A DNA stretch of 64,000 nt from Angiostrongylus vasorum (Eukaryota > Nematoda > Chromadorea > Rhabditida > Metastrongylidae), in contig JADANN010000240.1 of assembly GCA_018806985.1 (NCBI GenBank), forward strand, positions 124,001 through 188,000, given 5' to 3'. A program made the translations under genes and the position numbers. Below are positions 2,998 to 62,168 of the stretch, in pieces; the first letter of the stretch is position 1; every line of letters begins with the position of its first letter. Under the pieces are notes generated by a model. The model was not told the origin of the DNA. It ran no database searches and was given only the letters and a program-made list of their open reading frames with translations.

Positions 2998-3276
2998 AAG
3001 GATAAAGCTCTCGGCGTTGATCAACCCCCTGAGGGATGCACCATGCATTCGACTTCGCTAAGTATCGTTGGAGGTGATTGAATGCATATCTGGCCTTTAC
3101 AATGACTCGCGGTGGTCTATCGATGTATCGAGCCAGTGATGCTGTCCTCCCAGACAAGTCTGGTAGCAATTTGCCCACCCCAGAAGGATGGAAGCTTTGG
3201 TGAGCCATGGGGGGCAGGGGATCGACTCTACGTGCGTATTTCAGGGCACCTCCGACCACTGCGCCACACACCCCCC
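2998..3276 (-). repeat. SINE-A copy
   Basis: Full-length in reverse orientation, from the AAAGGATAAAGC tail to the tRNA-like head (TGCGCCACAC). Moderately diverged; no convincing target duplication. Confidence 0.9.
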
Positions 3277-4526
3277 TCGGGTGAGGTAGAATTTTTAACT
3301 TTCAAACATTTCAGTGAATAGCGAAAAATTAAATAAGAGCCGTTGATGAAAAGGAGTTAAGAGGTACTGAACGGCTGATGAAGGACGATGGTTGCACATC
3401 TCTGAGTGGAGCGAGCAGAGATTATATATGAGACGGATTCACCCCCACCCCCTTCTCCTCTTCCCACTCGCTGTCATCGAGACCTTAGTTTTTGAATAAT
3501 TCTAATATATGACATCATAGTGTAATGGTACCGTCACACTGATTAAATGCTTGTTTTTGTTTTATTTGAAACATTCATAAGGGAATCCTAAATTACTTAA
3601 ATCACTGTTTATTAACGAGAAGTCTTAGTAGTTACTCAATGAGTAGTAATAAGCGATTGATGAATGAAAATGGTGGTGGGGATGAGAGCTGTGTCGAACA
3701 AACGGAAATTTGAATAGTACAGCATTCATAACCACTGCGCTATATTCTCTCATTAAGAATGATTGAAGCAAATGAGAAGTGCAGTATGGTGGGGATAAAA
3801 CCTGAGTGCAATTGAATTTTTTCTCCACTTTGTTCTCCGATCTTTATGAGTAGATCTTCTTAAGTTTGTTTAAAAGCTTATCCTTTCCCATTAATAAATT
3901 CGAAAAAATATAGATGCATAGGGATCGATTTCTACTGTTCAATAAACTTATTTTAGTGCAACATTACTGTAGATGGCGAAACGCCACGAAGAGAGCACAG
4001 AACAAGGGTCCACATTTGCAACCGACTGAAACAACTTCAATTCTAGTGTCTTGTTAATTTTATACGACCAAGACTTTCCCTTGAATGAAGATCCGAAATT
4101 TCCATTCATCACAGTGACGTTTTCGAATATGCATCTTGGGTGGCAGAGCAACGGTCACCGATCAGAGGCGATCATGCCGCATTCCGATCGCGTTTCTCAT
4201 CAACAACAGCGGCCTTATTGAAAAAGTGTGCTCTTAACTGGGAACTCAAACAAAATACTTGAAAATGTATTATATTTGACTAATTAGCCACATGGCAGAA
4301 CGCCTTCTGCTGTATATCGAAGTTCAACACCCAGAAAAAATACGTCTCGTCATAGCGATGAAACACTTAACCGCTCAGATATGCTGCCAATCATTCATTT
4401 CTGCATATTTTTCAAAGCATTTTTCATGATAATTTGTAGTGAGTTTTTAGAATAAGCTACACTGTCTATTGCCGTATCCTGCCTGTGTGGTGGATAGTAA
4501 TTTTTTTGCATATAGTGTAATAGGAC
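3277..4526. other. No convincing gene
   Basis: On the - strand a TTGTTTCAG acceptor at about 4030 is followed by a short leader-like frame (MWTLVLCSL) that stops after 20 codons without a donor. Otherwise non-coding. Confidence 0.4.
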
Positions 4527-4925
4527 CTCCCAATGGTTCACCGCCCCATCGGTGGCTGGGAGGTGTTCCTGTGTGTCGGACTTCGATATACAGCGGGATG
4601 ATTCATCCCAGTGGCATGGTCCCCCAAGCTGAGAAGGGAGTCCGTCGCTTCCATCAAGAAGCCTAGCTAAGAGTAAACCAATACCAGGATGCACCATCGT
4701 CCTCGCTGGTATCAAAGTCGCCTGGTGGCAAATCTCCCTCAGATCCACAAGAGCTGTGACTGCCTGTGGTGGTGAAGACCTGGGGCATAGTTTGGCCAGG
4801 CTGACGTCGGGATTCGGGACAATGGCTTAACCAGCAAATCTCCAAAAAATGGGGATTATGCTGGGGCCCGCAACACCAGTGAGGACGGGCCGTCCAAGTA
4901 TCCAAGTAAGTAGGTGTGATGGGAG
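4527..4925 (+). repeat. Family D repeat, long copy
   Basis: About 400 bases, collinear with 24655-25045. Landmarks: AAGCCTAGCTAAGAGTAAAC, CGCCTGGTGGCAAATCTCCC, GACCTGGGGC, ATGCTGGGGCCCGCAACACC and GTGAGGACGGGCCGTCCAAG. The end resembles the RTE at 50735-52950. No clear tRNA-like head. Confidence 0.85.
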
Positions 4926-10959: not shown

Positions 10960-11250
10960 GTGGTCTCATCAGATCAATCCTGTTGACGGGTGATTGCTGA
11001 TGGCAGAGATCGATAGAACTAACTGAGAGAGAGGCGAAACGAAGGACCCGCATGGTGTGGTGGTGAACGCGTTAGCCCCCCGAAAAGGTAATAGCGCGTT
11101 CGTTCCCCACCGCAGACACCTGCGGTCCGGAGTTTTGCAAATATCTCAGCAACGTTGTGGTTGTATTTCGCTTAATAGCCTGCCATAAAAATTATAGAAG
11201 GCGGAAAACAAAAAGTAGACAACATGGAATACGTTGAAAATCACTCCGCA
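10960..11250 (+). repeat. Family C repeat
   Basis: GACGGGTGATTGCTGATGGC, then GCATGGTGTGGTGGTGAACG, GCGCGTTCGTTCCCC, then CGGAGTTTTGCAAATATCTC and AGCAACGTTGTGGTTG. Close to consensus. It starts where the LINE at 10945 ends. Confidence 0.85.
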
Positions 11251-13593: not shown

Positions 13594-13970
13594 GGGGCGG
13601 GTAGCACAGTGGTAGTGATGTCCCTCATCACGAGCAAGATAGAAGTGCGATTCTGCTCTGGGCCAACCAACACCCCTCATCCCTACGGGGTGGCGAAATT
13701 GGCACCGGACTTGTCTGGAAAAAAAATCACTTTATGCAATCTAACTGGGAAAGCTCCAGCCCGGCTATCCCAGGACTCCAGGGAGAATCGACTCGATCAG
13801 CATTCTACCACATTCAAAACGAAATGAAAATCATCAAACAGCAGCCGAAAGCAAACGTAAAGGTTGGAAGACCTTCGAGGATGATGGGTGCGAGGAAACG
13901 AATCGAATGTGAGCAGTGCTGGGATCCGCACGGTAGACGTGAAGACGGGTCATATAAAATGAAATGAAAT
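13594..13970 (+). repeat. SINE-B copy, full length
   Basis: tRNA-like head with a perfect A box (TAGCACAGTGG) and B-box-like GTGCGATTCTGC, then the core shared with SINE-A (ATCCCTACGGGGTGGCGAAA, ACCGGACTTGTCTGG), then a private body and the tail GTGCTGGGATCCGCACGG, GAAGACGGGTCATATAAAAT. The tail resembles an RTE C-terminus and 3' UTR. Confidence 0.88.
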
Positions 13971-15295: not shown

Positions 15296-15968
15296 GGAGC
15301 GGATAACACAGTGGTAGTGATGCCGTCATCACAAGCATGGTACTAGTTCGATTTCGCTCCGGGCTAACCAAGCTTCTCATCCCTCCGGGGTCGTGAAATT
15401 GGTACCGGCCATGTGTGGGAAAAAAATTGCTCTCTGCAATCCAACTGGGTATGCACCAGCCCAGCTATCTCAGGACTCCAGGGAGAAATTCTCGACCAGC
15501 ATTCTACGACATTCAAGATGAAATGGAAATCTTCAAGCGGCAACCGAAGCCACACGTAAAGTTGGAAGATCTTCGTGGACAATGGATGCGAGGAAACGAA
15601 TCGAATGTGAAAAATGTTGGGATCCGCACAATAGATTGAAGACGGACCATAAAGGATAAAGGATAAAGCTCTCGGCGTTGATCAATCTCTGAGGGATGGG
15701 CCATGCATTCGACTTCATTGAGCACCGTTTGGAGATGATTGTATGTGCATATCTGGCCTTTAAATGACTCGCAGTGACTTGCCGATGTGTCGAGCCAGTG
15801 CTGCTATCCTCCCTAAACAGGTCTGGCAGCAATTTGCCAAACCCGGAGGGATGGAAGGCTTGGTGGACCAAGGGCGCGGGGATCGATCCCACGTATGAGT
15901 TGCAGGGCGCCTCCGACCAATGCGCCACACGCGCCCGAAGACGGATCATATAAAATAAAAAAAATAGA
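15296..15968 (+). repeat. SINE-B copy interrupted by a SINE-A
   Basis: 15296-15651 and 15951-15968 are one SINE-B. Its head folds as a tRNA-like arm: GGAGCGG (15296) pairs with TCGCTCC (15354-15360), with TAGTTCGATTTC as the B box. The insert at 15652-15936 falls within the tail. Confidence 0.9.
15652..15936 (-). repeat. SINE-A copy inserted in a SINE-B
   Basis: Full-length reverse copy with a doubled tail unit (AAAGGATAAAGGATAAAGC). GAAGACGGACCATA (15638) and GAAGACGGATCATA (15937) flank it as a 14 bp target duplication. The surrounding SINE-B resumes right after. Confidence 0.92.
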
Positions 15969-17062: not shown

Positions 17063-17328
17063 AGACCCTGCAATACACGTGGGGTTTATCCCCATGCCCC
17101 ATGCCTACCAAACCCTCCGTCCCTCCGGGGATGGAAAATTGGTACAACATTTGTCTGGAAGTGTAAGAGCGCTGGCTCTATACATCAGTAGGTCACCGAG
17201 AGTCATTGTAAAGACCAGGTTTGCATTCAGCCACCTCCAACGATGCTTAACGAAGTCGACTGCATGGCGTATTTTTTCAAGGATTGATCAATGCCAAGAG
17301 CTTTATCACTTTATCCTTTTTGATAACG
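17063..17328 (+). repeat. SINE-A copy, head partly lost
   Basis: Begins near CCTGCAATACACGTGG and continues through the core (CCTCCGGGGATGGAAAATTG) to the tail (GAGCTTTATCACTTTATCC). The A-box part is missing. Confidence 0.85.
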
Positions 17329-24199: not shown

Positions 24200-24496
24200 A
24201 AGGATGAAGCCAAAGGATAGGCTAAAGCTTCTCGGCGTTGGTCAATCCCTGAGGGATGCTCCATGCATTCGACTTCATTAAGTATCGTTGGAGGTGATCG
24301 AATGCATATTTGGCCTTTACAATGACGCGTGGTGACCAACCGATGTATTGAGCCAGTGCTGCTATCCTCCCGGATGAGTCTGGTACCAATTTGCTGACCC
24401 CGAAGGGTATGGAAGGCTTGGTGGGCCTTGGGGGGCGGGCATCGATTACACGCGTGTGTTGCAGTGGCGCCTCCAACCACTGCGCCACACGCGCCC
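24200..24496 (-). repeat. SINE-A copy with target-site duplication
   Basis: Full-length reverse copy ending in the tRNA-like head (GCGCCACACGCGCCC). TTTATCTCAGTTA is at 24187-24199 and again at 24497-24509. Confidence 0.92.
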
Positions 24497-24654: not shown

Positions 24655-25045
24655 CCGTCCTAAGGGCTTACCGCCTCATCATGGCTGGCTGGTGTTGCTG
24701 GGTGTCGGGTTGCGATATACAGCTGTGGATCCATTCCCCTGACAGGGTCTCCCAAACTGAAAAAAAAAGTCCGGTGTTTCCATCAGGAAGCCTAGCTAAG
24801 AGTAAACCAATACCAGGATCCAACACCGTGCTGATACCAAACTAGTCGCCTGGTGGCAAATCTGCCTGTGATCCACAACGGCGGCGACTGCCTGTAATGG
24901 TGACGACCTGGGGCAGACTTTGGCCTGGCTGTCCTCGGAACTCCAGGGAGCCACAATTGCTTAACCAGTAAAACTCCAAAAAAGTGTAGATTATGTTGGA
25001 GCCCGCATAACCAGTGAGGACGGTCCATCCTAGTAAGTAAGTGGG
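24655..25045 (+). repeat. Family D repeat, long copy
   Basis: Collinear with the copy at 4527. The end reads C-R-L-C-W-S-P-H-N-Q-stop in one frame, like an RTE C-terminus, followed by GAGGACGGTCCATCC. Confidence 0.85.
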
Positions 25046-25310: not shown

Positions 25311-25570
25311 ACCGCCCTGCAACACACACATGGAATCGATCCCCGCGCCCATGGCCCACTAAGCCTTCCATCCCTCCGGGGGTCGGCAAATTGGTACTAG
25401 ACATATCTGGGAGGACAGTAGCACTGGCTCGATAGATCGGTAGGCCACCGTCAGTCATTGTAAAGGCCAGATATGCATCCAATTACCTCCAAACGATGCT
25501 TAATGAAGTTGAATGCATGGCGCATCCCTCAGGGGATTGATCAACGCCGAGAGCTTTATCCTTTTTTTAT
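25311..25570 (+). repeat. SINE-A copy abutting a (TA)n tract
   Basis: Sequence from CGCCCTGCAACACACACATG to the TTTATCC tail is close to consensus. Everything before, including the A box, is replaced by (TA)n. Confidence 0.9.
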
Positions 25571-27299: not shown

Positions 27300-27545
27300 G
27301 GTCACAATTTTAACTTATTATTTGCTGCCTACTCTTTTTTAACGGCAGTGTATATATTGCGAAATATAACTTTAATGATGCTGAGATATTTGCAAAACTC
27401 CGGACCGCAGGTGTCTACGGTGGGGAACGAACGCGCTATTGTCCTTTTCGGGGAGTAGCGCGCTCACCACCATACCATGCGGGTCCTTCGTTCCGCCTGT
27501 CTCTCAGCTACTTCTATTGATCTTTTGCCATCAGCAATCACCCTA
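27300..27545 (-). repeat. Family C repeat
   Basis: Reverse of the consensus: GAGATATTTGCAAAACTCCG, GGTGGGGAACGAACGCGC, CACCACCATACCATGCGGG, CCATCAGCAATCACCC. Ends about 450 bases before the rab-7 start. Confidence 0.85.
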
Positions 27546-30900: not shown

Positions 30901-33900
30901 TTAGGATGACTCAAGTGAAGTGTTTGCAGACGACAGTCAACAAGCAGATTGGGCGATAGTTGCGGATATCGTGTAGGTCACCCTTTCTTAACAATAGCAC
31001 GGTCCTGCAGGTCTTCCATTAAGTAAGGACTTTGCATTCAGACAGGTAACGTGTGAAGAGCCTAGCCAGCCTGTTTACGAGGACTAGCGGAAGATTCTTC
31101 AGGTGTTCTGGTCTTATCCTGTCCGGACTTGGTGCTGTTCAATTTTTCATCGACGAAATGGCATGTCGGATTTCAGAAGGGAGAACCAGTGTTAACACTT
31201 ATCGTGCTCCTTTATTTCATATGAGGACGTGGCTATTGAAGCAGTCTGACTAGCAGCTGTGAATGATTTTTCGTATTGCATTTCTGGATGCTGTAACTGT
31301 TCCGTCTGGGGGTCGGAGTGCAATCATCTTGGTCTAGCAACTGGCGAAGCTTCGGTGGGCTTTCCGAACGCTTTTCCCCAGCCTCTGCAGCTTCGACCAT
31401 TACTGCTACTCTTCTCTCTTTAAGATCTTCTTTTATCGCCTGTCTGCATTGTTTTGTAAGTTCGGACGTTAGTTCGCGGTTGACTGCAGCTCGTGCGATT
31501 CCATACTGGCGTATCAGCTCGAATGTTTCTAGAGACAGACGTCTCGTGGTGACTTTCGAACTCTCAGCTTTCATAGCGCTAACGTTGAATGTTGAATGAG
31601 CCGGTGCTATTCCTCGTCGATGTTATCGACAACGACGGCTTCCCAACAGTCGACTAGTGAATTGAATAGGTCCCAGTTTATGGTGGTTTTGGGACTTCGT
31701 TTTTTGAATTTAGCAGTTTTTTCTTCTTTCCGCGAGAAATTGAATCTAGTTCAAAGGAGGCAATGGGTCTGATCCCGTGTGAAATATTAAGACAACAGCG
31801 ACATCGGTTGGGCAAAACCTTCTATTTCCTATGATGTGGTCTATTTCGTTATGGTACTCTCCATTGAGAGACTCCCACGTCCAGCGTTGAGGGTGGGGCT
31901 CCTGGAATTGCGAGTTACTATGGATGGTCTTGGTCGTCTTGATAAACTTATACAGCTGCTCACGCTGCTCGTTCCATTCTAACCCGTGGGTCCTATTGTG
32001 ACGTTCTTCTTGTTCCATGTTAGTGTTAAAATCTCCATTAATGACCTTGAAGAATGTATGGTCTTCTCTGTCGATTTTCTCCAAGTCCGTATAGAACGCT
32101 TCGACTTCTTCGTCATAGTTTTATGTCGGCGCTTAAACGACGAAGATTGTCGAAGCAGGTATCGACCCACATCTCTTTAGTCGTAAACGTCCGATTCACG
32201 TAGCCGAGCTGCAGGTAACCGACCTAAAATACGTGGTTTCTTGTACCAATGTGTCTTCTAAGGCTATCACAGCGTTAATATGAGGTGTTTGTTGATGGTG
32301 ACGCGAACGAACACCTTTCCTATCACATAATCACATACATATCACATATCACACGCATTCTCGTGAACTGATGTGTAAGATGCACTCTGCCTACGTACAA
32401 GCGCACCTACACGGGCATGTACTTGGATGCAGTGGTATTTAACGTTAAAGTAGGTTAGGCACAGCAAAGAATAAGGACCTCATTTCTGAACGAATTCTCT
32501 CCTTAGGATAAAGAAATAGTCGATTTTGGATGGTTTTTAGCCTGCCTTCATGCACTTGGAAACACTACCAAGCCTGTAATCTGGGATTTATAGGCAATGT
32601 TGATAGAACTGTGAGTCGGTATGAAATAAATTAAGTGATCTGGAGTTGAGTGAGATGTATTCGTCATTCCTGAAATTGCTGTGAGATGCATTAATTTTAA
32701 CACTTTGTTTCATACAGATCTGGGATACTGCTGGTCAGGAGCGCTTTCAATCCTTGGGTGTTGCTTTCTATCGTGGAGCTGATTGTTGTGTGTTGACGTA
32801 TGACGTTACAAATCCTTCATCATTTAAAAGTCTCGATTCATGGCGAGATGAGTTTCTTATACAAGCGTGGTTAGTCCTTCGCGACTTTCAAATATATTCC
32901 TCATATTTTCATAGAATGACGTGTGTTTGGTGAACATAGAATATTGAGCTATCATGTAGAACTTCCTCTGAATAATGATTACCTAATCTACTCAAGAACT
33001 AGCATAGGATCCGATCACTTTCAGTCCTCGTGATCCAGAGAATTTTCCATTCGTTTTGCTCGGCAATAAAGTTGATCTGGAAGCACAAAGAGCTGTGAGT
33101 CAAAAACGTGCAGAGAACTGGTGTCAGTCGAAACATAACATGCCATATTATGAGGTGAAACTATCGAGTTTATGTTTCTGTCTTTTTTTTTATTTTTCAT
33201 ATTTTTTTATCCTGTGGATTCCATAAAAGATTGAGATGTGGAACTTTTAGGTCTCTGCCAAAGAAGCTCTAAACGTAGAAACCGCATTCCAAGCGATTGC
33301 GCGTGACGCACTTGCAAGAGAAGTTCAGGTTTGTCGTTTGGATATTTAGATTTAATTCTTTCCGTTCATGATGATTGCCGATTTGTCGCCGTTTACAAGT
33401 TATAAATCGTAGATCCGTTTTTCGCAAAGACGCTATGGCTCGACGCTTGAAATATCACTATGGCTTTATTTGTCTAAATTCCCCCCTCAGATCTGCTTTA
33501 GTAGTACTGGCGTTGAACTGGATTTAAATTTGCGACCTGTGTGTAATTTTTGTAGTTTCCTTTAAATTGTTCCAGTAAGGAGTAGGATTTGAAGGACATA
33601 TTCACTGTGAATTGCTTCAACTGACAATCCTTGTTCAGTATTAGAGTACCTATCTTACAAAGATATGTTTGGCTGTAACAGTTTTCATAACCAAGAGGTA
33701 CTTTTTTACTTCAGGAAAAAAGGAAATGTGTATGGGAAAAAAATAATCGACTTAGTATTAAAAGCTCTAGTAATCATTTGTTCTTTAACACTTTGTCTAT
33801 TGGTTGTTTATCATGTTTATTGGTTGTTTATCACTAGCCATCTAATCCAGTAACTCTTTAGTGCAATGTAGCCATAACTATGCTGAAATATTTACAAAAC

Positions 33901-34318
33901 TCCGGATCGCTAGTGTCTGTGGGGGCGACCGAAAACGCTGTTACCCTTTCTGGGGGCTAGCGCGTTCGCCACTACATCGTGCGAGTCTTTCTTTTTGCCT
34001 TTTTCTCAGCAATGTTATTGACCTATAGGTGCTATCTTTTAGTGCACTTTACTGAAGTATCTGATTTTGAGCTGATATATTATTGAGATAGAACTACTGG
34101 CAAATCCACTGGTCGTTAGGAGTTATTACAAGCTTTCATAATTATTGCACATAAATTTGAATCATTTAATATTACTAAGATTCTCATGGAGTGTGCGGTC
34201 ACATGGTTTCGTCGGTCAGCTTGCATCGTTGCAGGAAACACACGACTTTCCGGAATTTCCTGATCAGATTCGTCTCAACGACAATCGATCGTCGTCAAGC
34301 GGTGGTTGCAATTGCTAA
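27993..34318 (+). CDS. rab-7: RAB-7 small GTPase, complete, six exons
   Basis: Rab GTPase that controls traffic from early to late endosomes and lysosomes. Exons: 27993-28106, 28388-28453, 32718-32869, 33025-33154, 33251-33328, 34235-34318. They join in frame to 207 aa, the usual Rab7 length. Seen: P-loop GDSGVGKT (residues 15-22), switch I Thr40 in ATIGADF, WDTAGQE with Gln67, guanine-binding NKVD (125-128), SAK (156-158), and a C-terminal Cys-Asn-Cys for double geranylgeranylation. All introns are GT-AG; the third exon uses donor GTTAGT, which keeps family length (QACPRDP, where Ser is commoner than Cys). The start follows a TGATTTTCAG acceptor by 11 bases, so the mRNA is probably trans-spliced. 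Intron 2 is 4.3 kb and holds an antisense RTE LINE; intron 5 holds a family C repeat. Nothing looks broken. Confidence 0.97.
29645..32170 (-). mobile_element. RTE-type LINE, 5'-truncated and decayed, inside rab-7 intron 2
   Basis: Read on the - strand, pieces appear in LINE order. 31746-32084 has the end of an apurinic-type endonuclease (VINGDFN, then [17 protein letters not shown]). 31233-31574 is a basic linker. 30197-30709 has reverse transcriptase with FADDIVLI, the catalytic Asp pair intact. About 29700-30200 carries the C-terminal segment in broken frames. Most of the endonuclease N-terminus is missing. Frameshifts make it inactive. It is antisense to rab-7. Confidence 0.85.
33855..34045 (-). 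repeat. Family C repeat in rab-7 intron 5
   Basis: Reverse copy with GAAATATTTACAAAACTCCG, CTGGGGGCTAGCGCGTTCGC and TTTTCTCAGCAATGTTATTG. Diverged. Confidence 0.75.
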
Positions 34319-41035: not shown

Positions 41036-44000
41036 TTAATGCACTTGGGAATTCTGCATATACACCACACATTCATCGGGAGCAGGTATAAGTTTTTTGC
41101 AGAGATTTTCTGTTAAGTCATAATAAGCGTCAAAGTTCCGCTCGCCGTCAATCATAATCCATGGAACAAAATCGAGTGGTGGACTAAGTGAAGCCGTCCG
41201 CAAACCGGCCGTCGCCAAAAGACGTCGTCCAATTGGGCCAGTTGCACATTCTTTCATCCTGAAGTGAGGTTGATCGTAAAACTCTAGATAGATATCACTC
41301 TACTAGATACATCAAAAACCAATCAAGGTTTTTTCTTCGAGTATTGTTATCCTACGAAGAGCGTTATTACTATTACTATGATTACCATCTTATTTCCCTT
41401 TCCTTATTACTACTTTCTCCAAGTATTTCTACTCCACGAAAAATACTTTACGACTATTACTGAATGGTTCGCGGAGCACTTTGATTAGAGATGAAGTGGA
41501 ACATGCATTACACCCAACGATTACATTGCGCCCCGGGCAACCAAAGGCTTACACATCCGTCCGTGGTCCGAAAACTTGTACCAGACACGTCTTGGAAAGG
41601 CCCTCTCCCATCCTGAAAGCAGGGGACATCCTATGGTGAACACCTGACTATGCTCTAGCAGAGTTATATGAGAATTCCAAGGAGAATTAATTTGACCAAC
41701 ATCCAACGCATGCAAGAAGGCAAAACCCTCAGCTAACAGCTGAGCCAACGCGAAGATCCTCGCAGATGACGAATAAAAAGCAATGAACCGACTAGTTTGC
41801 ACTTTATGTGACGACGTGTAAATTAAGAAGTCAAATAAAGAAAAACTATGCTATTGTGTCAAAGTAGCTACAAACGCCATCAATGATTTAGCGTGCGGAA
41901 AACTGTGCGGCCATTGTGGCGAAGCTGTGCGTTGGATGAGTATTGATTAGGCACACGAAAGCAAAGTCGTCTTCTGCGCGAAGCCATTCGTTTTAATTCT
42001 TGTGTACCGCTACTTTTATGCATGTGAAGTAGTGGTTGGAGGCGCCCTGCAATACACATGGGAACGATCACCGTGCCAAAAGCCCACCTAGCCTTCCATC
42101 CCACCGCGGTCGGAAAACTGGTGTCAGACTTGTCTGGGAGGATAGCAGCACTGGCTCAATGCATCAGTACGCCACCACGAGTCATTGTAAACGCCAGGTA
42201 CGCATTTAATCACCTCCAACGGTGCCTAATGAAGTCGAATGCATGGCGTATCCCTCAAGGATTGATCAACGCCGAGAGCTTTATCCTTTTTTTTATTTTA
42301 CCGCTGTTTTTATCAACGATCTTAAGAAGTGAGAACCACATCTAGATGTTGACTGAATGCAATAAGAAGAAGAAATTCTGAAAAGAAAACAACAACGACT
42401 CTGTAAAAATATCTGCGATACTAATGTATTGAAATAAGAAACAAATAAAAGGATGAAAAATAAAGCGCTCGTTTTGATCAATCTCTAAGGGAGGAGCCAT
42501 ACATCCGATTTCATCAAGCATCGACAGAGTTTGTTGAATCCATATCTGGCCTACACAATGACTTCTGGTGGCTTACCATCGTGTCATGTCAGTGGTGCTA
42601 CCCTCCCAAACAAGCCTGGTACAAGTTCGATGAATTCGAAGGGATGGAAGACATGGTGAGGCCGGGGCGTAGAATTGAACTAAGGACAAAGTACATACTG
42701 GAAGAGAGTATAAATCCGTAATTGCACTGATTCCAACGCTTATCTACAGCCACGTTTATTTCATTTTCCATCAGTAACCTACCACTGTTCGTCTAAGAGC
42801 GCATTATTAGTGACACATGACTTCACTGCATCGTCCAGATCATTTCGCCCTTGGATGCAATCGATAATTGGGACGGTCCTGTCCGGAACACCAATCCGTT
42901 CGATAACACAGTTCATCAACTGATTCAATAAACATTCGCTTTCACCATGTTGGCACGTGCATCTGAAAAAAAAGCCTATTTTTTCCACATTCTGCATCAA
43001 ATCAACTTACATGGAGATAAATTTGCGAAAAAGCATTTATTGAAATCTGTGTGATCCATAGATGGCTCATATTCGTTACTATAACTGTACACTTACTATT
43101 CAATTGCCAAGCTAACACCAGGTTGATGAAAAATTTTATTCGGCCAACGCTTCGACAATTCGTCTTCCCTAGAGCCGCTGATCCAAGGCTATGTCCACAT
43201 GCTTTCGTACTCCCAATGCGGTGTCTTTGTCTCTGCATTGAGTCAGATCTTTCTCAGTGGAGCACTGCTCGAATGAGGCATACTCACCCCGCGATGGTCT
43301 TTTATACATCACAGTTGTTGTTGATAATAGTGGTTGTCCCATGATAATAAGTTGTTTTTGCTGGATAATCTATCTTGCGGAAGTCGGTGCCATTATTAGC
43401 TAGCAGAGAACTGTTTATCAACCTCGTGTTAGCTTATCAATGAAAGAGTATATACATATTGACCAGGAGCGAGGTTAAAGGAAAGTCGGTTTTTTGAAAC
43501 ATAATTATACAATTATGGTGTCAGATAGCGCAATGGTAGTGATGTCCGCCATCGAGCATGGTGCTAGTTCGATTCCGCTCCAGGCCTCTTATCCCTCCGG
43601 GGTCCGAAAATTGGTATCGGACTTGTCTGGCAAAAGTTCACTCTTTGCAATCCAATTGGGAACGCTCTACCGAGGCAACCTCATGAGTCCAGGGAGAATC
43701 GACTCAACCAGCATTCAACGGCATTCATGACGAAAGGGGAAATTCTTAAGCAGCAGTCGAACCCTCACGCGAAAAGTTCGAAGACCTTCGTGGATGGTCG
43801 TTCCGAGGAAACGAAGCAAATTCAAGAATTGTAGAGATCCGCACGGAGGTGTGAAATCAGGGTCGTATAAAAATAAGTTCATAATTGGTAGTTTCTAATT
43901 TATTTAACTAGTTTAGTTAGTTTATCTTCAATTCTGTTTACAAATTTTTTTAATTTAATTCAATGCAAGTCAATTTATTATATAATCTAACCAATTTCTC

Positions 44001-47000
44001 AGTCATTACTTCAATTACGACAATTAGTATTACATATTTGCACCCATAGATACATTCATATTCATAAAGATCGCATTCTGTTTATTGGAGTGTGAAGTAA
44101 TCGATTATTGATCGCCTACTCGTAATCGTCTCCAGTCGTCGCCACACACCGAGCTTTTCCGAAAGGAATCATTGTGAGTTCTATGCGACCCGTATTCGAT
44201 AGCATTGACCATGTTTTCATAAGCTGTTTGTGCAGAAATCTGAAATAGAATGAAAAAATCGTAAGTGAAAAAAGGCGAATAAAAATTTAAAAAAAATGGA
44301 ATACTTCATCCACTCTCCATCACCATCCAGTCGAGATTTAAAAAAAATAAATCAGTAGCTAAAAATTCACTATGGTTGACGAATAACCGAAGCAAAAATG
44401 AATAACACTTGAATCGAGGAAGGAAAAAAAAGTGAAATGATGTCATCAATGAGTATAATGTTCCACCTATGAGGTTTCGTTTCGAAGTATGATCGCATGT
44501 GTAGTGAATTTACCGTACTGTGCTGTATTGTCAGGGAATAACAACACCATGTGCAACTGAGTGATTGCATCGCATAAGTTCTTCAGAAATACATGAAACG
44601 AAAACTGTGACGATTTCCACGGAATTTTTTACTGAAGGATACAACCCGTATGGTGTGGCGGTGAACGCGTTAGCCGCTGGAAAGGGTAATAGTGCGTTCG
44701 TTCCCCCACCATAGGCACCTGCGGTCCGGAGTTTTGCAAATAGTGGTTGAGCCTCACATAATACCCTGCCATGAAAAAATTTTAACACGCAGTAAATTAA
44801 AAAGTTAACCGGCATGCGTTTACTTCCATACAATAACACACATACAACACAATCGTAGCTGACGTTTCGGCAGAATCGCCTTCTTCAGAGCCTGGAAGGG
44901 TACACTAATACGCAACTTACTAGGTCAAACGCTTCAACAGCACAAACAGAGAGATGAAAATCTACACGATAATTACAGGACCTGGGCTTCTCTAAAAACC
45001 CACCGCTTTTTTCACCTGTCTTCCACCGAGGAAGAACAGCCGCTCAGAGTCGCATATGCTTGACAACTGCACCTCCCCCACATCAATGATTGATGTGAAG
45101 GTACGGGGCGAGATCACGTGTAATCTAGGGGCATTACTCTCTGCTATTCATTGTGGGATTTTTTGGCATTTATCCAAAAAGCCTCGAGGAGTTTGTGCGT
45201 TGGTATTCTAGGATCCTGTGCGAGGGTAACGACTTTTATATCAAAATCGCCTCCGCTGTGCTTTTTGTATCCTATGCGTGCCTAGTGGAGTGCCTTGTTT
45301 TGATTTTCGTTTGCCATCTAGGTGTTCTTTCATGCGGATACATAAAGGTCTGCCCATTTCGTGAATAAATTCGCCTCCGTAAGTACTACAAGACATCAAG
45401 TATATCGTACCTGAACTCATGCAATCACCGTCCCCTGCCGTAACGGCAGATTACGCAATTTGTTGTTTCACATAGACGGTCGTATAGGCGGTCACGAACT
45501 AACTGACGACGTAGAGTATCCGGTGGTATTTCAACTAACGCTACCGATTCCTCTAGATCTGCCCTTCTTAAGCATCGCTTTATCGCTATACTTATTTCAT
45601 CGCTAATAAAGGCCAAGATAAACGGGATTTTTGTTCCGGCTAAACTGTTCGTTTTAGGACGTCGCTTTCCTTCTAAACTTATCTCGTGGGATTACTATTT
45701 CGTAGCCATTGGAGATGGCTGTTTGCCGGGCCAAGTCGTGCAATTCTTCCTTTAGTTCCCTACTTTGTGCACACAGAGGTGGCTGTTCGAAACATGTTTC
45801 TTAAATCGCCCTCTGTGTGTGAAGGGTGGGAGGAAAAGTCACTATCCTCGCACGGGATCCTAAACCACCAACCTCGCGACTGCTGAGAGAAAAAACGACG
45901 AATTCATAATCCAATGCCGAGGTTAATAGAAAGTCGATATTGGGTACTATTAAAAAGTTAACATTGTGATTTAGACTACAGCCTGAGCTTAACTGAGTTC
46001 ATTTGCCGATTTGTGCTCCCCAGATCACTCCCATGATTGCTGACGGGTGATTGCTAATGGCACTGATCAATAGGACTTACTGAAGGATAGTTAAAGTAAT
46101 TCGGGGTTACGTAAAGTACAATGATTCGGACTCCGAAAACAACGGTTTTCTATAGTAAATCACTCTGAGAACTTTATAACGAATATGATCCCTACCCATA
46201 ACCAATAACGAAACTAAAGATGTATTTTCTTATGGATGTAAGATTGGAAGAAACTACTTGTGTCTCTCGTCACTTCATTCACACCTCTTTCCTTGAGATG
46301 AATTTACGACTTGTTAAGCAAAATCAGCCAATAAAAAAAAATCGATGGACGCGTACCTAGATGTGTCCGGACATTTTGATTCCATGTAGATTTCCAGAGA
46401 TACTTTGTTGAGTTTCGGCGCCAAAGGAATCCTTGACATTATCTGAAGTATTGAATCATATTTGCAAATAGAAAAATCTGCGTCCGAGTTTTGCAAATCT
46501 CTCAGCATCATTGGTGACTGTATTTCACATTGTACCCTGACAAAAGGCCGCGTGTGGCACAGTGGTCGGAGGCGCCTTGCAACACACACATGGAATCGAT
46601 CCCCTGCGCCCATGGCCCATCAATCTTTCCATCCCTCCGGGGTCGGCAAATTTGTACCAGACTTGTCTGGAAGATAACAGCACTGGCTCATCATACATCA
46701 TCGGCACCGCGTTCATCTCCAACGATACTTAATGAAGTGAATCCATGGCGCAGGGATTGATCAACGCTGACAGCTTCATCCTTTATCGCTTTACCCACAC
46801 GAAAGTATAATGGGTAACAGGTAAGAACTTAAACACTACGATATTGTTTCACATAGACTGTTGTTGACGAAAGTTTTATCTGAGAGTCTTTAGTCCGCTC
46901 TACACTCACCTTTTGTCTCCCTTCCGATAAAAAACGGCACGATTTTTTATTTTGCGAATCGGACTTACCCTATTATTTTTGTGCATTTTGCTATTCGGGA

Positions 47001-48614: not shown

Positions 48615-48770
48615 TAACAACTTCGTATTAGCATTTCTTGCATTCGATTCGTTTTCCTGGCATTTATCATCCACAAAGGTCTCGAAGATCTCGCGTGTTG
48701 TTTTGGCTGCTGCTTGATGATGGCCGTTTTCTTTATGAATGTCGTAAAATGCTGGTCGAATCATTTCTTC
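48615..48770 (-). repeat. SINE-B 3' body fragment
   Basis: Reverse of the distal SINE-B body: GACCAGCATTTTACGACATT, CATCAAGCAGCAGCC and GAAAACGAATCGAATGC on the - strand. It lies about 100 bases before a + strand SINE-B. Confidence 0.7.
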
Positions 48771-48871
48771 GTGCAGTCATGGGGATATCCGAGCTAAAGC
48801 ATTCCCATGTGCTGTGAAGGAGGGCGTAATAGTAGTAATTAACAATTAACAAGAATAATAATTAATAACAA

Positions 48872-49158
48872 CCATCCTCCGGGGTCGGGAAAATGGTACC
48901 GGACTTGTCTGGGAAAAAAATCACTCTCTGCAATCCAGTTGGGAACGTTCCAGCTCGGGTTTCTTAGGACTCCAGAAAGAATTGCTCCACCAGCATTCTA
49001 CGACATTCAAGATGAAATGAAAATCCTCAAGCAGCAACAGAAGCCATACGTAAAGGTTGGAAGAGCTTCGTGGAAAATGGATACGAGGAAACGAACTGAA
49101 TGTGAGCCGTGCTGGGATCCATGTAGTATTTTTTCAAGACGGGTCATATAAAATAAAA
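48872..49158 (+). repeat. SINE-B copy, headless
   Basis: Starts exactly at the shared core (CCTCCGGGGTCGGGAAAATG) and runs to GACGGGTCATATAAAATAAA. The tRNA-like head is absent. Confidence 0.88.
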
Positions 49159-49194
49159 TCAAAAAAATGACGGCAATTAATAATAATAATCACC

Positions 49195-50028
49195 TGTACC
49201 ACCTGTAGTCCCGTTGATCGTCGACTGACCTCGAGCGGGCGCCAGTAAATCTTCCATTTTTCCCCGTCGCGTGCAAGAGTAGTCCAGCGGGTTCTGCTCG
49301 CTCTAGGGACTCGTCGAGCATCATATTTTTTCCTCTAGGCTCTTCGTGAAGAACTCTAACCACCGGATCGGTGGTCTTCCTGCAGTACGTTTGATACCTC
49401 GAGGAATCCAGTAATTGACGGTCCTTGTCCATCGATTGTCATTCGTACGCATTACGTGTTCGGCCCAACTTATCCTCGACTGTTTGGCGTACAGAATGGC
49501 ATCTTTGATTTTTGATCGTTGACGAAGGTCGGATCTTCGGATCCCACCCCTTACTTGTGTTAAACGGGATATCGTTTCGACTGCGCGTTCCACAACGCTG
49601 AGTGATCTTTCATCCTGCTTACGCATCGACCAGGTTTCTGGCGCATACGTTAGGGCAGGGAGTACCGTTGAGTCGAAAAGGTGGGCATGGAGTCGGGCGT
49701 TCTTTGTTCTCTTCACTACATCCTCGATGCTCTTGAAAGCTCCCCAAGCCGCTCGTTTCATTCTGCTCAGCTCTGGAGTTAAGTCGTTCATCATATTGAT
49801 TTCCCGATCTAGATAGACATAACTGGAGCATTCGGAGATATTCGTTCCGTTGAGCGTGAATGGAGCGTACGAAACCAATCCGCTCTTCATGAACATCGTT
49901 TTTGTGAGATTAGTGGAAGACCAACCTTTCCACAGGCTTTATCAAAGTCGGCAAGCATACGTTTCGCTGGGCTAATATTTGGTGTTATAAGGACGATGTC
50001 ATCAGCAAAGCGAAGATGATGTAACTGC
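49195..50028 (-). mobile_element. RTE-type LINE 3' fragment, fairly young
   Basis: Starts inside RT at FADDIVLI (about 50010) and runs to the C-terminus (WKIYWRPLE near 49230). One frameshift lies near 49900; a second near 49330 separates the last about 45 codons. The 191-codon frame at 49321-49896 is uninterrupted, so this is the least decayed copy of its family here. Both ends abut ATT/TAA simple repeat, as is usual for RTE insertions. Confidence 0.85.
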
Positions 50029-50080
50029 CGACTGCGGACCATAATAATAATACTAACAACAAATAATATAATATATAATA
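50029..50080. repeat. TAA/AAT-rich simple repeat between LINE and SINE-A
   Basis: AATAATAATACTAACAACAA followed by AATATAATATATAATA; AAT units also occur on the far sides (49175-49190, 50366-50400). Probably a preferred insertion target. Confidence 0.7.
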
Positions 50081-50365
50081 GGGGCGCGTGTGGCGCAGTG
50101 GTTGGAGGCGCCACTGCAACACACACGTATAATCGATCCCCGCGCCCAAGGCCCTCAAGCCTTCCATCCTTTCGGAGTCGGCAAATTGGTGGCAGACTTG
50201 CCTGGGAGGATAGCAGCACTGGCTCGATACCGGTAGGCCACCGCGAGTCATTGTAAAGGCCAGATATGTATCCAATCACCTCCAACGATACTTAGCGAAG
50301 TCGAATGCATAGCGCATCCTTCAGGGGATTGATCAACGCTAAGAGCTTTATCCTTTATCCTTTGA
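50081..50365 (+). repeat. SINE-A copy, close to consensus
   Basis: Best-preserved head: GGGCGCG pairs with CGCGCCC as a 7 bp acceptor-like stem around TGGCGCAGTGG (perfect A box) and AATCGATCCCC (degenerate B box). Tail is two TTTATCC units. It sits in a TAA-rich simple repeat. Confidence 0.93.
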
Positions 50366-50734: not shown

Positions 50735-52950
50735 AATGGTTACCGTTCCACAGCACGCCTCTTCCATGGGAATTCACTTTTCGACAAAAGAGAAAAATCA
50801 CCGATGGACACGCGAGTCCCCTAACGGCACGGCTCACGCGGAGACCCGATCGTGTTCTCACGAACAGAAAATGGTGCATTTGACAAGTGGTATCTATTCT
50901 CTAAAGCACCTAATCACCACCTACCTTCTCTGTGCGAAGATTCGATTCACCCGTAAGCTGGAAAAAGCACTCTTGTCACTGTCCAAGAAAGACACGTCGT
51001 GTACGATCAGGATATTATCAATAAAATCCTCTCCTCATGTGACCGTCAGATAAACGAAGACCCTATCGAAGACTATATGTTGCTTGTTGAAAGACTTAAA
51101 ACTTCTGCCAAATTCCCTCAGTTCTTCAAACAAAAAGTTCAGATACCTTCTCCATTACTATTACTGAGTTGCTCCAAAAGAGAAGGACACTGAAGCGTGA
51201 CCCTACTGTAAAACACCTAACATGGCTGATTGTAAATTCCAGCTGTGGAAGATCTTTGGAAAAGGATTTACATCAGCATAAGCAAAAGAATTTGCTGGAA
51301 TCAGCTCAAAAATGATGTACTTTGAAGGCCATCGAGAACTTTTGGACTGTAATGTTCCACTATCTGCCCTGATGAACCAAGGTGGAATTGCCACTACATT
51401 TTGCCATGGTATGGAATTGATAATAGAGGAGTTCCATACCAATCTTCTCCTCCTCACACTCCTCATCTCGGAACCCGAAATCTCTGCTGCTCAAAAACCG
51501 CCTATACTCTCCGAAATTCGAGTTCCGACAGAAAATCTGAAGATACGCATAGCTCCTGGACCCGATAATACTACCGCCCACTTCCTTAGTGCTGGTGGCC
51601 ACAAATTATATGTGCTTCCCATAATCCGTATGGCATCCTACATCCAAAAGGAAAAAAAATTCCAAACCAGTAGAAGACGTCGCGCACGGTTATCACACCC
51701 AAGAAGAGTGATCGGAGTAATCTCCGCAACTACCGCCCAGTATACTTGTTGATGTACCCTACAAGCTGTTCACCGAGATTATCCTTTTGCGAACACGGAA
51801 GACCTCGAAGGGGAACAAGCTGTTGAATAATCATGGTTCCGAAAGAGATTCTACTGCATGGACCACATCCAAACTATATCGCGGCTCAAAGAGATCTGTC
51901 GGTAGAACTACCTTCCCCTTGTCCTAACATTTATCGACTATGAGAAAGGGTCTGACAGCGTCGAAACGAATACAATCCTATCAGCGCTCGTCGACCAAGG
52001 AGTGGTCAAGGAGTCGTTCTACATACGAACATCATCTGACTGTTATCGGAGCCGCAGCGCAGATATATAGCTTTTTCATCGATACTCCACACTACCCACA
52101 TGGAAAAGGCTCGGCAAATGGCACAATATCGTCAAATACCTGCTTACTGCCGCATGGCAATGGATAACGAAGTCACTAAAACAGACGAGAAGGGTACACG
52201 TATTTATGGAAAAATCCTATCAAATCTTCGTTTTGCGGACAACATCGTCATTTTCCCGAGTACTAGTGAAGCAGAGTCGATGCTCAACGTACTCAACGAA
52301 GTGCGAGAAGAGATTGGACTGCGTATAAAAAGGACGAAAATTCAATTCATGAAGAACCCATAGCACGAAGGTGAAAAAAATCGAACTGGATGATTCTCTG
52401 ATTAGAGACAACCTCGTACCTATACTTAGGCGACAAATGAATATAAAGGACAAAATGAAGGAGGAACTAGACAAAAGAAGGGGAGAAGCATGGGTCGTAC
52501 GTGAGCTCTCTCAAAGAAGCCACCGACCGACTAACGGACCGAGAACTCAGTGCTCTCATCGTTCTGTTATGTAGCAGAGACGTGGATTCGTATTTCAACC
52601 AAGTCCCGGTATTCACAACGTCTAGCCGGAACGCACAACTCAGATATTCCAAACCTATCCCATATACATCAATAGCGAAACACAGATGCGCCGGTCACGT
52701 AGTAAGAAAAAAATGACAGATAGGCGAAACGAAAGGTGGAGTAGATTCCAGGACATTGCAGACGTCCGCTTGGAAGACCACCTAAACGATCGGTGGACGT
52801 GTTCATGGGTAAGTCAACCATCTGCATTCTTAGTTGGCAACGATTTCAGGATTACGGAATGGGACTCAGTCAACCATTTTCGAAGCAAACCACCACCATG
52901 GACGACGACTGACCCGCACAATCAGTAAAGATGAGCCATTCAAGTACACA
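50735..52950 (+). mobile_element. RTE-type LINE, second family, decayed
   Basis: Reads from the end of the endonuclease (HRWTRESPNGTAHAE near 50790) through RT to the C-terminus. RT-like pieces: 51312-51752 (APGPDNTTAHFLSAGGHK), 51900-52060 (TFIDYEKGSDS in shifted frame), 52100-52363 with FADNIVIF, in which the second catalytic Asp is Asn. It ends DPHNQ-stop at about 52928. Frameshifts are frequent and the 5' half of the endonuclease is missing. Its last 40 bases match the tails of family D and SINE-B. Confidence 0.8.
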
Positions 52951-54984
52951 ACTATGAAAGCATTAATAGTTATACAGCTTATGGTCTCTTTTGTATTCTT
53001 AAGATTTTGAATCAGCAACTGAGAAAAGATTTTTAAAAATTCGCTGACAGCGTAATTTTGCATAGATGGAGTTGCATTTAAACGAACATCCAAGAAAAGT
53101 TTCGATCAACAGAAAAATTTGTACCATTGGCTTCAAAAACCAACTTGTATTTTTACTGTTGTTTGAAAAAAGTGAGAAAAATTCGAAGTGAAGGCCGAAC
53201 CGATGAGGTTATAGAAGATCACCGTGAAGCTCTTACAGTATTGGACGGTAGCCTTTGGCCAACAGCAAACCGCATAGAGAAACGATAGGCTTAGCTTTTC
53301 GGCCTTGCTCTCCTGTTTTTTGTAGAGAAATAGGAGATTTATATTAGTTCTTTGGTTAACGACGCGTGTTAACATCTCAGTTATAAAATTGATAACGCCA
53401 AACATTTGAAGTGTAGTTTTCTTATCCAGTTTTAAGAAAAACATATTGAGGAAAAAAACACTGTGAAAACTGAATAGAAAGCCGAAACGAACGGCCCACA
53501 CGGTATGGTGGTGAACGCGTTAGCCCTCGGAAAGGGTAATAGCGTGTTCGATCCCTTCCGCAGACACCTGCGGTCCCATGTTTTGTAAATGTCTCAGCAC
53601 CATTGTGGTAACCATAAAAACAGTTTTCTCAGAATTTTTCAATCCGTCATAAACAACGGAACGGACTATGATACTCATTGTGCAAAAAATCTTAAAACAA
53701 TGAAAAAAAGAGTCATGCTAAATATACACTACCCAGGATAATTCAATGGATCTCTTTCATGAGAAAGATTTCGGTCTCTGTAGATTGGAACCACACAGTG
53801 CATAAGGGAACGGATAACGACGAAGAAGATGGGATCATTAGCATACGAGATACCCTATGCCTTGATATCAATATAAAAGGTTGTCAACGGAGCGTACCAA
53901 GTGCATCGATTTCAATGCACATTATTTTTCCACTGAAGAAGATCAAAAATTTGGTTATAATCGCACATGTGCTAACAAAGTTGCGTTTGTACAAGGATAG
54001 ACGTGGCAGTATCGTGCCTGTCCGAGTTCGGATAAACACCAACAATTCACCGACTGACCACACAGACGGAGGCAGTTCCCGATAGTCTTCAGAAACGATT
54101 TCCCACGCCTTTATCGGGAAGACCCGTGCGTATATCCATCCCCATGGCAAAGTTCGCCTATTTACACAGGGATATTCTCACAAAACAGAAAAAAAAGTGC
54201 TTCATACGAGAATTGCGATACTCTTAGTGCCGATAGCGCAACCAGAGTACATGGTCGGGCTCTGCTATTAATTCTACCGCGAATATGGGTACATTCACGA
54301 ACAGCTTGCCGAAACCACCATAAGTAGACGTTGCAATCGACCCATAACCGCTTCTCATGACCTCGCAGTCATTTTGTTCTAAACTTTTGGTCAAATTGAC
54401 TAGAAGAATGAAATCGGCACAAATGACTACACGGAGATATTTGGTCTATGTTTTAATCCTCTATTTACCCATCCTGGAAGGTATGACTTAGCCTTGAAGT
54501 CAAACACTTGGAGTTTTTCACTATATATGAAAACTGAAAAAAACTGGGATGATGTCTGAGAAAAAAGTGCTGAAATGAAATAGGCAACCTGGGAGAGAAC
54601 ATCAGTTTTTTCTAAAGTTTCCCAAGTGCCTACCTACCGGGTGATATCATCACATATGTCAACTGTTAAAAATCTCCAGAATTTAAGCGGCTGCATGTGC
54701 TTGATGATTTTTTAGAAAACAATAAAATCAATGTTCGCTGACCCGTAATGGAAGCGCGCTGTTCAGGGTGGGCTCTCCGAGTGGAATATGAGCAATTGTT
54801 CGTCGGCTGTGGATCTACTGGGCTTTTTGCGATAAAAACAATTTATCAATAACACGAATGATTTAGGGGTTATAAACGTAATAGAATTGTAGCATAGACT
54901 TTGACCTATGATCCTAAGTCCTATGAATGATATGTATACTGTAATTTACTATGTGTTATTATGGACCAGCTTTTCCACTAGGAA
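52951..54984. other. Mostly non-coding, one possible decayed frame
   Basis: Besides the family C piece, both strands are open at 53759-54150 (108 codons on +, 88 on -). The - strand alternative frame reads like an old retroelement piece but has no diagnostic motif. Confidence 0.3.
53493..53625 (+). repeat. Family C repeat, central part
   Basis: ACGGTATGGTGGTGAACGCG, GTGTTCGATCCC (good B box), CAGACACCTGCGGTCC and TGTCTCAGCACCATTGTGG. Confidence 0.8.
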
Positions 54985-55145
54985 GCCTAGCTAATAGTAA
55001 ACCAATACCAGGATCGACCACCGTCCTGGTATCACACTAGTCGCATGGTGGCAAATCTCTCTCTGATCCACAAAGACTGGGAAAAAATGGAGATTATGCT
55101 GGGGCCCACACAACCAGTGAGGATGGGCCGTTCAAGCATCCAAGT
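54985..55145 (+). repeat. Family D repeat with internal deletion
   Basis: AGCCTAGCTAATAGTAAACC to TCTGATCCACAA, then a jump to GAAAAAATGGAGATTATGCT and GATGGGCCGTTCAAGCATCC. The end is very similar to the 3' end of the LINE at 52910-52950. Confidence 0.82.
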
Positions 55146-57114: not shown

Positions 57115-57490
57115 GGAAGTGAACTGGTTAGAGATGCCGCGCACTATACGTATAGCAGCTGGTTGGACTCCGCACAGGGGGCAACTAGGCCTGTACGCCA
57201 GGGGTCGAAAAATTGGGCAAATTTACCTTTAAAAAACTCCAATCAATTCAAAAATGAGGTTTACTGGTTACAGCGAAGATCTGAGAACATCTTATTACAG
57301 CTTTACCAGCATTACAAAAAGAATCAGCTCCATCGCTATTCAACAACATTCATGAGGAACACAAAGTCATCGAGTGGCAGTCCAATCCAGATGAAAATCC
57401 GGAGACCTTCGTGGATAAGGGATAAGGGGCAATGAACCGAATGAAAGAAGTACTGGGAGCCACAAAATATGTGAGGCCGAGTGAGATTAA
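57115..57490 (+). repeat. SINE-B copy, old
   Basis: Head-like AGTGAACTGGTTAGAGATGC with GGTTGGACTCC as B box; distal CCAGCATTACAAAAAGAATC, GACCTTCGTGGATAAGG and GTACTGGGAGCCAC. Confidence 0.65.
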
Positions 57491-60589: not shown

Positions 60590-60813
60590 TTGTTTGAACA
60601 CTAGGTCGGTTCGGCTCTACGGGATATCCTACAGACCCCAGAGCGATTTCCATATGGTAACTTGCTGATCGGCCAGGATTTTCCCCCGCGGTCGCTAGAC
60701 ATCCGTTGCAGGGCCCTCCCAAGTCTTCACAACCGGTGCTAGTCGACCATCGTGGATCAGCAGGAGATCCATCAATTTCAGATTGGAACATTACCAAGCC
60801 GGTGATGATATTC
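60590..60813 (-). CDS. Probable internal exon, Cys/Gly/Pro-rich protein
   Basis: About 74 open codons between an acceptor (GATGACAG before 60813) and a GTGAGT donor at 60589 (starts and ends in phase 1). The reading holds GSPADPRWSTS, CEDLGGPCNGC and GYPVEPNRP. No family recognised. The 3' phase fits the small exon at 58182-58231. The same frame upstream (to about 60935) is also open apart from two stops near 60835-60845, so older coding sequence may extend there. Confidence 0.4.
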
Positions 60814-61294
60814 CTGTCATCGGTTTACTCTTAGATGTATTTCCGGATGAAAATGTCGAACTCCTTTGGCTCAACTGGATTTTCAGTGGAAATGAAGCTC
60901 AGCTGGACATCGAAATTCGAACCCAGGAAAACTCATAAGTTTCGATGAGGCTGTAAACCATTGAGGGGGGGAATGTTATTACTAAAACGCTAGGAGTCTA
61001 AAACGAACAATAATCCGTGACATGATGGGATCCAACTGAAAGCGACTATTGTGATATTCATAGAACTGTGGTGCCGAATAATCACATTATCGTCGATTTT
61101 AATATAATAGGAGCCATGACTACGTCATGTTCATATTGTGTCGCTAGCACCGGAAATCAATATGGGCTATCAAACAGCTACAGCTATGATAGTTCTAGGG
61201 AAAAAACTAAGTTTTTAGAGGACGAGACTATTCTTTATTGAATCGGCATCTTCTTCGATGCCTGAGATGTTTTCTATTGAAGTGTTCCAACATA
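60814..61294. other. Mostly non-coding
   Basis: 60848-60940 is open on the - strand in the frame of the next exon (FDVQLSFISTENPVEPKEF) before two stops; the rest shows nothing. Confidence 0.3.
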
Positions 61295-61433: not shown

Positions 61434-61612
61434 GTGATTGCTGATAGCGCCAACAGGTCAATAAGACGGCTGAGGAACAGGCGAAGCCAAGGACTCGCAT
61501 GGTGTGGTGGTGAACGCGTCAGCCCCCGGAAAGGGTGATAGCGTGTTCGGTCCCTACAGCAGACACCAGAGGTCCGGAGTTTTGCAAATGTCTCAGCAAC
61601 ATTGTTCCGACA
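61434..61612 (+). repeat. Family C repeat, right half of a head-to-head pair
   Basis: GGGTGATTGCTGATAGCGCC, CATGGTGTGGTGGTGAACGC, GTGTTCGGTCCC, GTCCGGAGTTTTGCAAATGT, TCTCAGCAACATTG. Confidence 0.85.
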
Positions 61613-62014: not shown

Positions 62015-62168
62015 CGTGGCAGACCTTAGTCAGGTCAGGCCGACCTCGGGATCCAAGGGAACCACAATGGCTCAACCGGCAGGTCTCCAAAAGAAAGAGG
62101 AAAATGGAGATTGTGCTGGCGACCACACAACTAGTGAAGACAAGCTATCCAATCCAACTATCCAAGTA
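62015..62168 (+). repeat. Family D 3' fragment
   Basis: CCGACCTCGGGATCCAAGGG, CACAATGGCTCAACCGGCAG, ATGGAGATTGTGCTGG, AGTGAAGACAAGCTATCC. Confidence 0.7.

Follow-up and report, generated by a model that had tools for sequence, protein, structure and literature searches.

The LINE and the repeat copies in the window

The window, a stretch of 64,000 nucleotides, contains an RTE-type LINE copy of a subfamily designated RTE-1, together with copies of two short repeat families, family D and SINE-B (Table 1). The LINE copy is old and broken, with stops scattered along its whole length, and lacks about 0.7 kb at the 5' end and a part of the tail. Its start was placed by the alignments of the furthest-5' genomic copies, which begin at window positions 50751-50765 (20 genomic LINE loci matched). 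The fragment 52040-52360 matched RVT_1 with an E value of 0.001, under the Pfam cut-off. Together, the window copy and 20 genomic ones gave a partial majority consensus that matched RVT_1 at 3.6e-22, with a C-terminal end reading ...EWKLCWGPHNQ*. With this protein consensus as the query, which covers the 3' part of the element only, the best 120 of 1196 matches included relatives in Necator americanus with 76% across the entire length, and closer but partial relatives in Angiostrongylus cantonensis, with at most 92% over 53% of the query. We take the LINE to be a probable member of the RTE clade, on motifs typical of the clade and these relatives rather than on a tree. By the same relatives, the genome probably belongs to a metastrongylid nematode near Angiostrongylus.

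A second and younger subfamily, RTE-2, was retrieved by a C-terminus search of the genome (280 Mb, 468 contigs). The genome search scores the best candidates only, resulting in copies biased towards the query; its first-look candidate counts, which are not copy numbers, were 5294 for the D region, 5463 for SINE-B and 18648 for the RTE C-terminus.

The window holds further repeats. SINE-A and SINE-B have a core of about 55 bp in common (within SINE-B 68-126), with 77-87% identity at eight places, and the head and tail of SINE-A are by eye unlike those of SINE-B; the core possibly represents a central domain that is conserved across SINE families of nematodes and unites them. One SINE-A copy is nested in the tail of a SINE-B copy, with GAAGACGGAyCAT on both sides as the target-site duplication. 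A third repeat family carries a tRNA-like stretch (GGTGTGGTGGTGAACGCGTTAG...). Judged by eye, the second LINE-like copy resembles RTE (...WTTLARDGEKWKIYWRPLE); it ends in an (ATT)n-like repeat unlike the tails of D or SINE-B, and Pfam gave no significant match for its part 49321-49938.

Table 1. Repeat copies in the window, and family D stretches at genomic LINE loci.
Feature	Position	Strand	Remarks
RTE-1 LINE copy	50751..52954	+	
Remaining LINE 3' tail (last codons and 3' UTR)	52913..52954	+	RTE-1 3' consensus 224-265, 81% identity
Family D copy named in the earlier note	54966..55145	+	D 115-231 joined to D 323-385; 91% and 94% identity
Full-length D copy	4526..4912	+	D 1-390, 88% to consensus
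Full-length D copy	24658..25042	+	D 3-389, 86% identity
Partial D copy	62033..62168	+	D 266-386, 73%
5' stretch of either D or RTE-1	60792..60963	-	D 6-180, 68%
Full-length SINE-B copy	13594..13960	+	88% to consensus
SINE-B copy, SINE-A copy in its tail	15296..15645	+	91%
SINE-B copy	43524..43872	+	79%
SINE-B copy without head	48876..49155	+	SINE-B 88-365, 89%
SINE-B fragment	48630..48807	-	SINE-B 152-324, 74%
SINE-B fragment	57338..57464	+	SINE-B 207-334, 71%
SINE-A copy nested in SINE-B tail	15646..15935	-	
SINE-A/SINE-B core, eight places	358..411, 3148..3197, 17103..17158, 24368..24427, 25353..25412, 42082..42139, 46614..46670, 50156..50207		
Third repeat family, tRNA-like stretch	11007..11171, 44644..44706, 53471..53606, 61470..61605		
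Third repeat family, tRNA-like stretch	27359..27523, 33866..34036	-	
Second LINE-like copy	49134..50291	-	
D stretches 5' of the LINE body in genomic LINE loci			L039, D 1-317; L041, D 116-321; L043, D 19-316; L046, D 1-317; L050, D 1-300; L057, D 1-315

An RTE 3' end in both short families

Sharing of a tail is an accepted way for short elements to recruit a LINE, and the earlier note had proposed that SINE-B and family D carry tails copied from the LINE in the window. The end strings quoted there were all found: CCCGCACAATCAGTAAAGATGAGCCATTCAAG at 52913-52944 in the LINE, CCACACAACCAGTGAGGATGGGCCGTTCAAG at 55106-55136 in family D, and GATCCGCAC at 13923, 15621 and 43836 in SINE-B, in each case followed by some form of GTGAAGACGGGTCATATAA, with TAGAC separating the two SINE-B strings in one inspected copy. 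The last codons had been correctly read as x-P-H-N-Q-stop, as the RTE copy consensus shows. The RTE 3' consensus of 20 genomic copies ends in ...GCGAGAGAGAAACGAATGGAAATTATGCTGGGGCCCGCACAACCAGTGAAGACGGGCCATCCAAGTATCCAAGTAAG. Of this consensus, 34 nt (RTE-1 3' consensus 190-223) are missing from the window copy, so that the window, where only the last part had been seen, understates the length of the shared tail.

Comparison of the consensus 3' ends, as had been suggested in the note, revealed matches above chance of the LINE tail to both family D and SINE-B, so that both families have an RTE-type LINE 3' end. At 16 of the 20 LINE loci, the last part of family D (D 326-392) equals the LINE's 3' end; the match starts at D 324-333 in 15 of them, and in L058 it covers no more than D 365-392. 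The last 75 bp or so of SINE-B (282-356) aligns to the C-terminal codons and 3' UTR of RTE, with an identity of about 68% to RTE-1 and about 78% to RTE-2. The SINE-B consensus scored 28 against the 3' end of RTE-1, the window subfamily (shuffles: mean 12.7, maximum 22), and 37 against that of the younger RTE-2 (mean 11.9, maximum 21); none of the 2000 dinucleotide shuffles of SINE-B per subfamily reached these scores. The RTE-2 3' consensus used here was built from 16 of 20 fetched ends, with L091, L093, L096 and L097 excluded as divergent. At the peptide level, comparison of ...WTMDARKRIECEKCWDPHSR from SINE-B with ...WTTTARERNEWKLCWGPHNQ from RTE yielded a score of 70, which none of 5000 shuffles reached. 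The SINE-B reading frame depends on one additional A, which 11 of 23 aligned rows contain; the core W..AR.R.E...CW.PH lies downstream of this A. The shortness of the aligned stretch would favour chance or convergent low complexity as the source of the likeness. However, the alignment is collinear and stops where the terminal repeats begin, and the two sets of shuffles contradict this explanation, which we consider to have next to no chance of being true.

Family D is an internally deleted RTE element

The consensus of family D, derived from 29 genomic loci and the window copy, is about 392 bp long. It consists of the first ~317 bp of RTE-1 fused to the last ~67 bp of RTE-1, with the ORF absent. 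Within ~5 kb upstream of the LINE body, the 5' part of D was found on the same strand in six of the 20 LINE loci (Table 1), beginning at D 1 in four of the six. The six loci remain alignable past the D breakpoint in every one of their 15 pairs, with a longest piece of 69-77% over 103-338 bp, and the sequence runs into an apparent ORF start (ATGACGTC...). The D-like stretch is therefore the LINE's own 5' end. Further D matches in the 20 LINE loci, mostly on the opposite strand, represent separate D insertions. Family D is a short internally deleted element (SIDE), made of the 5' and 3' ends of the LINE without its ORF. The term was coined for R2 deletion derivatives of Drosophila (PMC3414825) and has also been applied to NARTc and RIME of trypanosomes (PMC4035085).

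The earlier note had regarded D as a true SINE, with a body of its own and a borrowed LINE tail. Such an element would be short and common, as D is by its number of first-look candidates, and would share its tail with the LINE, and the D consensus holds no stop-free stretch longer than 62 codons in the three forward frames. However, the body of D equals the RTE 5' end, and none of the 29 loci has pol III A and B boxes near D. We attach very little probability to the SINE reading, and a separate body is contradicted by the 5' match in the six LINE loci. By the note's own account, a 5'-truncated, internally deleted LINE with no own body would refute its reading. This is largely what was found: the internal deletion and the lack of an own body are there, but D is not 5'-truncated and keeps the LINE 5' end; the particular copy named in the note is itself 5'-truncated and internally deleted, with D 232-322 (91 bp) gone.

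Both D and SINE-B are surrounded by an excess of target-site duplications, which for D, with its many copies, is evidence of spread as a family through target-primed insertion. Words of at least 7 bp common to the two flanks were present in 14 of 19 D copies, compared to 13.5% in the swapped-flank null, and in 9 of 20 SINE-B copies, compared to 11.6%; 19 of 29 D loci and all 20 SINE-B loci were retained, chosen by completeness. The words lie directly at the element ends in several D copies, not in all.

A candidate HDV-like ribozyme at the 5' end of family D

The D consensus starts with CCTCCCAACGGTTTACCGCCTCATCGTGGCTGGGAGGTG, and its first base opens what is, by sequence and fold, a candidate HDV-like ribozyme that may cleave itself. 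P1 has 7 bp (CCUCCCA/UGGGAGG), and its 3' strand comes immediately after P3, which pairs GCC with GGC (3 bp) around the loop UCAUCGU, giving an L3 with CG. P2 of 7 bp (GGUUUAC/GUAAACC) makes the pseudoknot, and J4/2 (CUAAGA) provides the putative catalytic C. A descriptor of HDV-like ribozymes, whose rules were fixed after the sequence was seen, picked out a single site in the D consensus, which starts at nucleotide 1; over 20000 dinucleotide shuffles of D it gave none at the start and 27 anywhere. It found no match in SINE-B and one match, on the minus strand, over both strands of the window (128 kb). The Rfam HDV-type models matched none of the 8 D loci run, out of 29 (E up to 10), nor was there an HDV-type match on the window at the gathering score.

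Covariation was assessed on 36 stretches, all those in the collected loci whose start lies in the first 4 nt and which extend at least to nt 155 of the 165; LINE 5' ends are among them. In these, 85% of the cells are paired, compared to 32-49% when the pairing is slid, and 93 of 500 shuffles were as high. If D copies decay independently, a lack of covariation above shuffles is expected and uninformative. In a looser test, P1 (6 of 7 pairs), P3 and the CG of L3 are kept together in 12 of the 36 copies; neither full-length D copy of the window passes it.

Among 20 regions upstream of RTE-2, nine of them clearly with the RTE-2 5' UTR, no HDV-like 5' end was found, and D 1-176 had no match upstream of RTE-2 in nine copies. 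One of the 20 (L113) contains a D copy, and its lone match in a simple P1/P3 scan lies outside that copy. The 5' end of RTE-2 begins near TTCGGCTTCTACATCGTCCTTGAGCGG in six copies (L099, L100, L102, L111, L114 and L115), from which the HDV-like start of RTE-1 and D is absent; the 5' ends of the two subfamilies differ.

The structure at the 5' end of D could instead serve in protein binding or translation, or be an RNA of some other kind. Covariation no higher than in shuffles and the want of an Rfam match would accord with this, and a review mentions, from work in preparation, that the 5' ends of RTE carry ribozymes of the twister and not the HDV-like type (PMC7761336). However, the nested P1/P2/P3/L3/J4-2 layout is located exactly at the first base of the element, and HDV-like ribozymes are on record both in RTE, by citation, and in the Ascaris element R4, where they have been demonstrated (PMC3774820). 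These alternatives appear unlikely to us, and the HDV-like candidate fits the known pattern of self-cleaving ribozymes already published for RTE 5' ends.

SINE-B combines a pol III head with two RTE pieces

The SINE-B consensus, derived from 20 genomic and three window copies, is about 365 bp long and has a pol III A box at position 9 and a B box 42 nt further, with strict A and B boxes in 8 of the 20 genomic copies. ARAGORN found a tRNA in none of the 20 copies, and the description 'tRNA-derived' therefore rests on the boxes. The tail proposed in the earlier note does come from RTE, but this undershot the RTE contribution, since a piece of RTE 5' UTR is also present. SINE-B 113-207 matched the RTE-2 5' UTR, the consensus of which was built from 9 of 20 regions, with a score of 34 (shuffles: mean 15.5, sd 2.8, maximum 30.5; 0 of 3000 reached it). 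The match ends at GACCAGCA, about where D too leaves the 5' UTR. The match of SINE-B to the 5' UTR part of D itself was weak (score 23.5, reached by 97 of 3000 shuffles). For the 74 bp in between (SINE-B 208-281), an RTE coding origin found no support in three frames, and no source was found.

SINE-B may have been born from a SIDE, in that a pol III head could have been joined by template switching to an already deleted RTE transcript. This idea, which we consider less likely than not, is prompted by D (at ~314-317) and SINE-B (at 207) leaving the RTE 5' UTR at nearly the same base; this point precedes the likely start codon of RTE by a few dozen bases.

The terminal repeats of the two families differ. 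D ends in the RTE terminal repeat of AAGT/ATCC type, and SINE-B in (AAAAT)n, an end that was found in none of the 3' ends compared from 20 RTE-1 and 20 RTE-2 loci. When RTE-2 coding sequence joined to the SINE-B tail was used as the query, none of the 40 scored matches extended past base 191 of 207, where the repeat starts. Either RTE accepts more than one kind of terminal repeat, or another RTE lineage has escaped detection. The earlier claim that this RTE family is the driver is accordingly strong for D and no more than probable for SINE-B, as the terminal repeat of SINE-B differs and its tail fits RTE-2 better than the window subfamily (37 vs 28).

Proposed mobilization of both families by one RTE lineage

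We propose, with good confidence, that one RTE-type LINE lineage supports two non-autonomous parasites, the SIDE family D and the pol III-type SINE family SINE-B. The RTE protein would be made from intact RTE RNA and copy RNAs that bear the RTE 3' end. The RNA of D would be transcribed, probably from outside promoters, trimmed to its exact 5' end by its own candidate ribozyme, and copied into the genome by the RTE protein upon recognition of the common 3' end. The RNA of SINE-B would be produced by pol III from the tRNA-like head and copied in trans by an RTE of the same lineage.

SINE-B might instead be moved by an unseen RTE lineage that ends in (AAAAT)n, its tail match to RTE-1 and RTE-2 then reflecting kinship between RTEs. 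The difference between the terminal repeats of SINE-B and RTE, as well as the modest identity of the tail to either subfamily, agree with such a lineage. However, SINE-B also matches the RTE-2 5' UTR, and no RTE of this kind appeared among the 40 scored matches, although this absence is weak evidence because scoring was limited to the best candidates and RTE-2 served as the basis of the query. We regard an unseen lineage as a real possibility that falls short of likely, and favour movement of SINE-B by an RTE of the lineage that probably moves D.

If SINE-B did arise from a SIDE, such elements would be the missing step to bipartite RTE SINEs, and non-autonomous elements would make up much of the sequence annotated as RTE in nematode genomes of this kind. 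With D, SINE-B and RTE at hand, how bipartite RTE SINEs arise can be put to the test.

Comparison with known systems

Bipartite RTE SINEs have already been described in birds, as have deleted elements with a ribozyme in flies and trypanosomes. Among the matches listed in a search of open-access titles and abstract openings, none concerned a SINE/RTE pair of strongylids or a SIDE of RTE type. In Angiostrongylus cantonensis, which has a similar genome size (282-Mb assembly), RTE-RTE LINEs are likewise abundant; RTE accounts for 39.2% of the genome and underwent at least two waves of expansion (PMC6871775). The whole words SINE, SINEs, short interspersed and non-autonomous are absent from the main text of that paper, and a paper on RTE transfer between nematodes and shrews mentions neither SINEs nor ribozymes (PMC6542046). 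Should the present genome be that of A. cantonensis or a close relative, part of the 39.2% may consist of short parasites, which would change how repeats are annotated and how small-RNA targets are interpreted.

Similar to D, the R2 and R2/R1 SIDEs of Drosophila possess a 5' HDV-like ribozyme, a candidate in D, and a LINE 3' end without the ORF (PMC3414825). They are moved in trans, as D would be. These SIDEs belong to the R2/R1 clades and are rDNA-specific and rare, whereas D is of RTE type and dispersed, with thousands of first-look candidates. In addition, D retains about 150 bp of 5' UTR beyond the candidate ribozyme, unlike the Drosophila SIDEs (PMC3414825). The pairs NARTc/L1Tc and RIME/ingi resemble D as truncated and abundant LINE derivatives whose 5' ribozyme, a candidate in D, is as in the parent; they differ in that they belong to the L1Tc/ingi clade of protists and in that Pr77 is also reported as a promoter (PMC4035085).

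The closest counterparts of SINE-B in these sources are bird SINEs mobilized by AviRTE, such as ManaSINE1, which have a promoter head and a bipartite tail of RTE 5' UTR and 3' UTR (PMC4844689). SINE-B differs from them in its host, probably a strongylid nematode, in a 3' piece that includes the last ~20 codons, in a terminal repeat unlike that of its RTE, and in the additional 74 bp. Together, D and SINE-B are probably a case, in a nematode, of one LINE lineage that sustains both a deletion derivative headed by a candidate ribozyme and a pol III SINE made in part from the same two ends.
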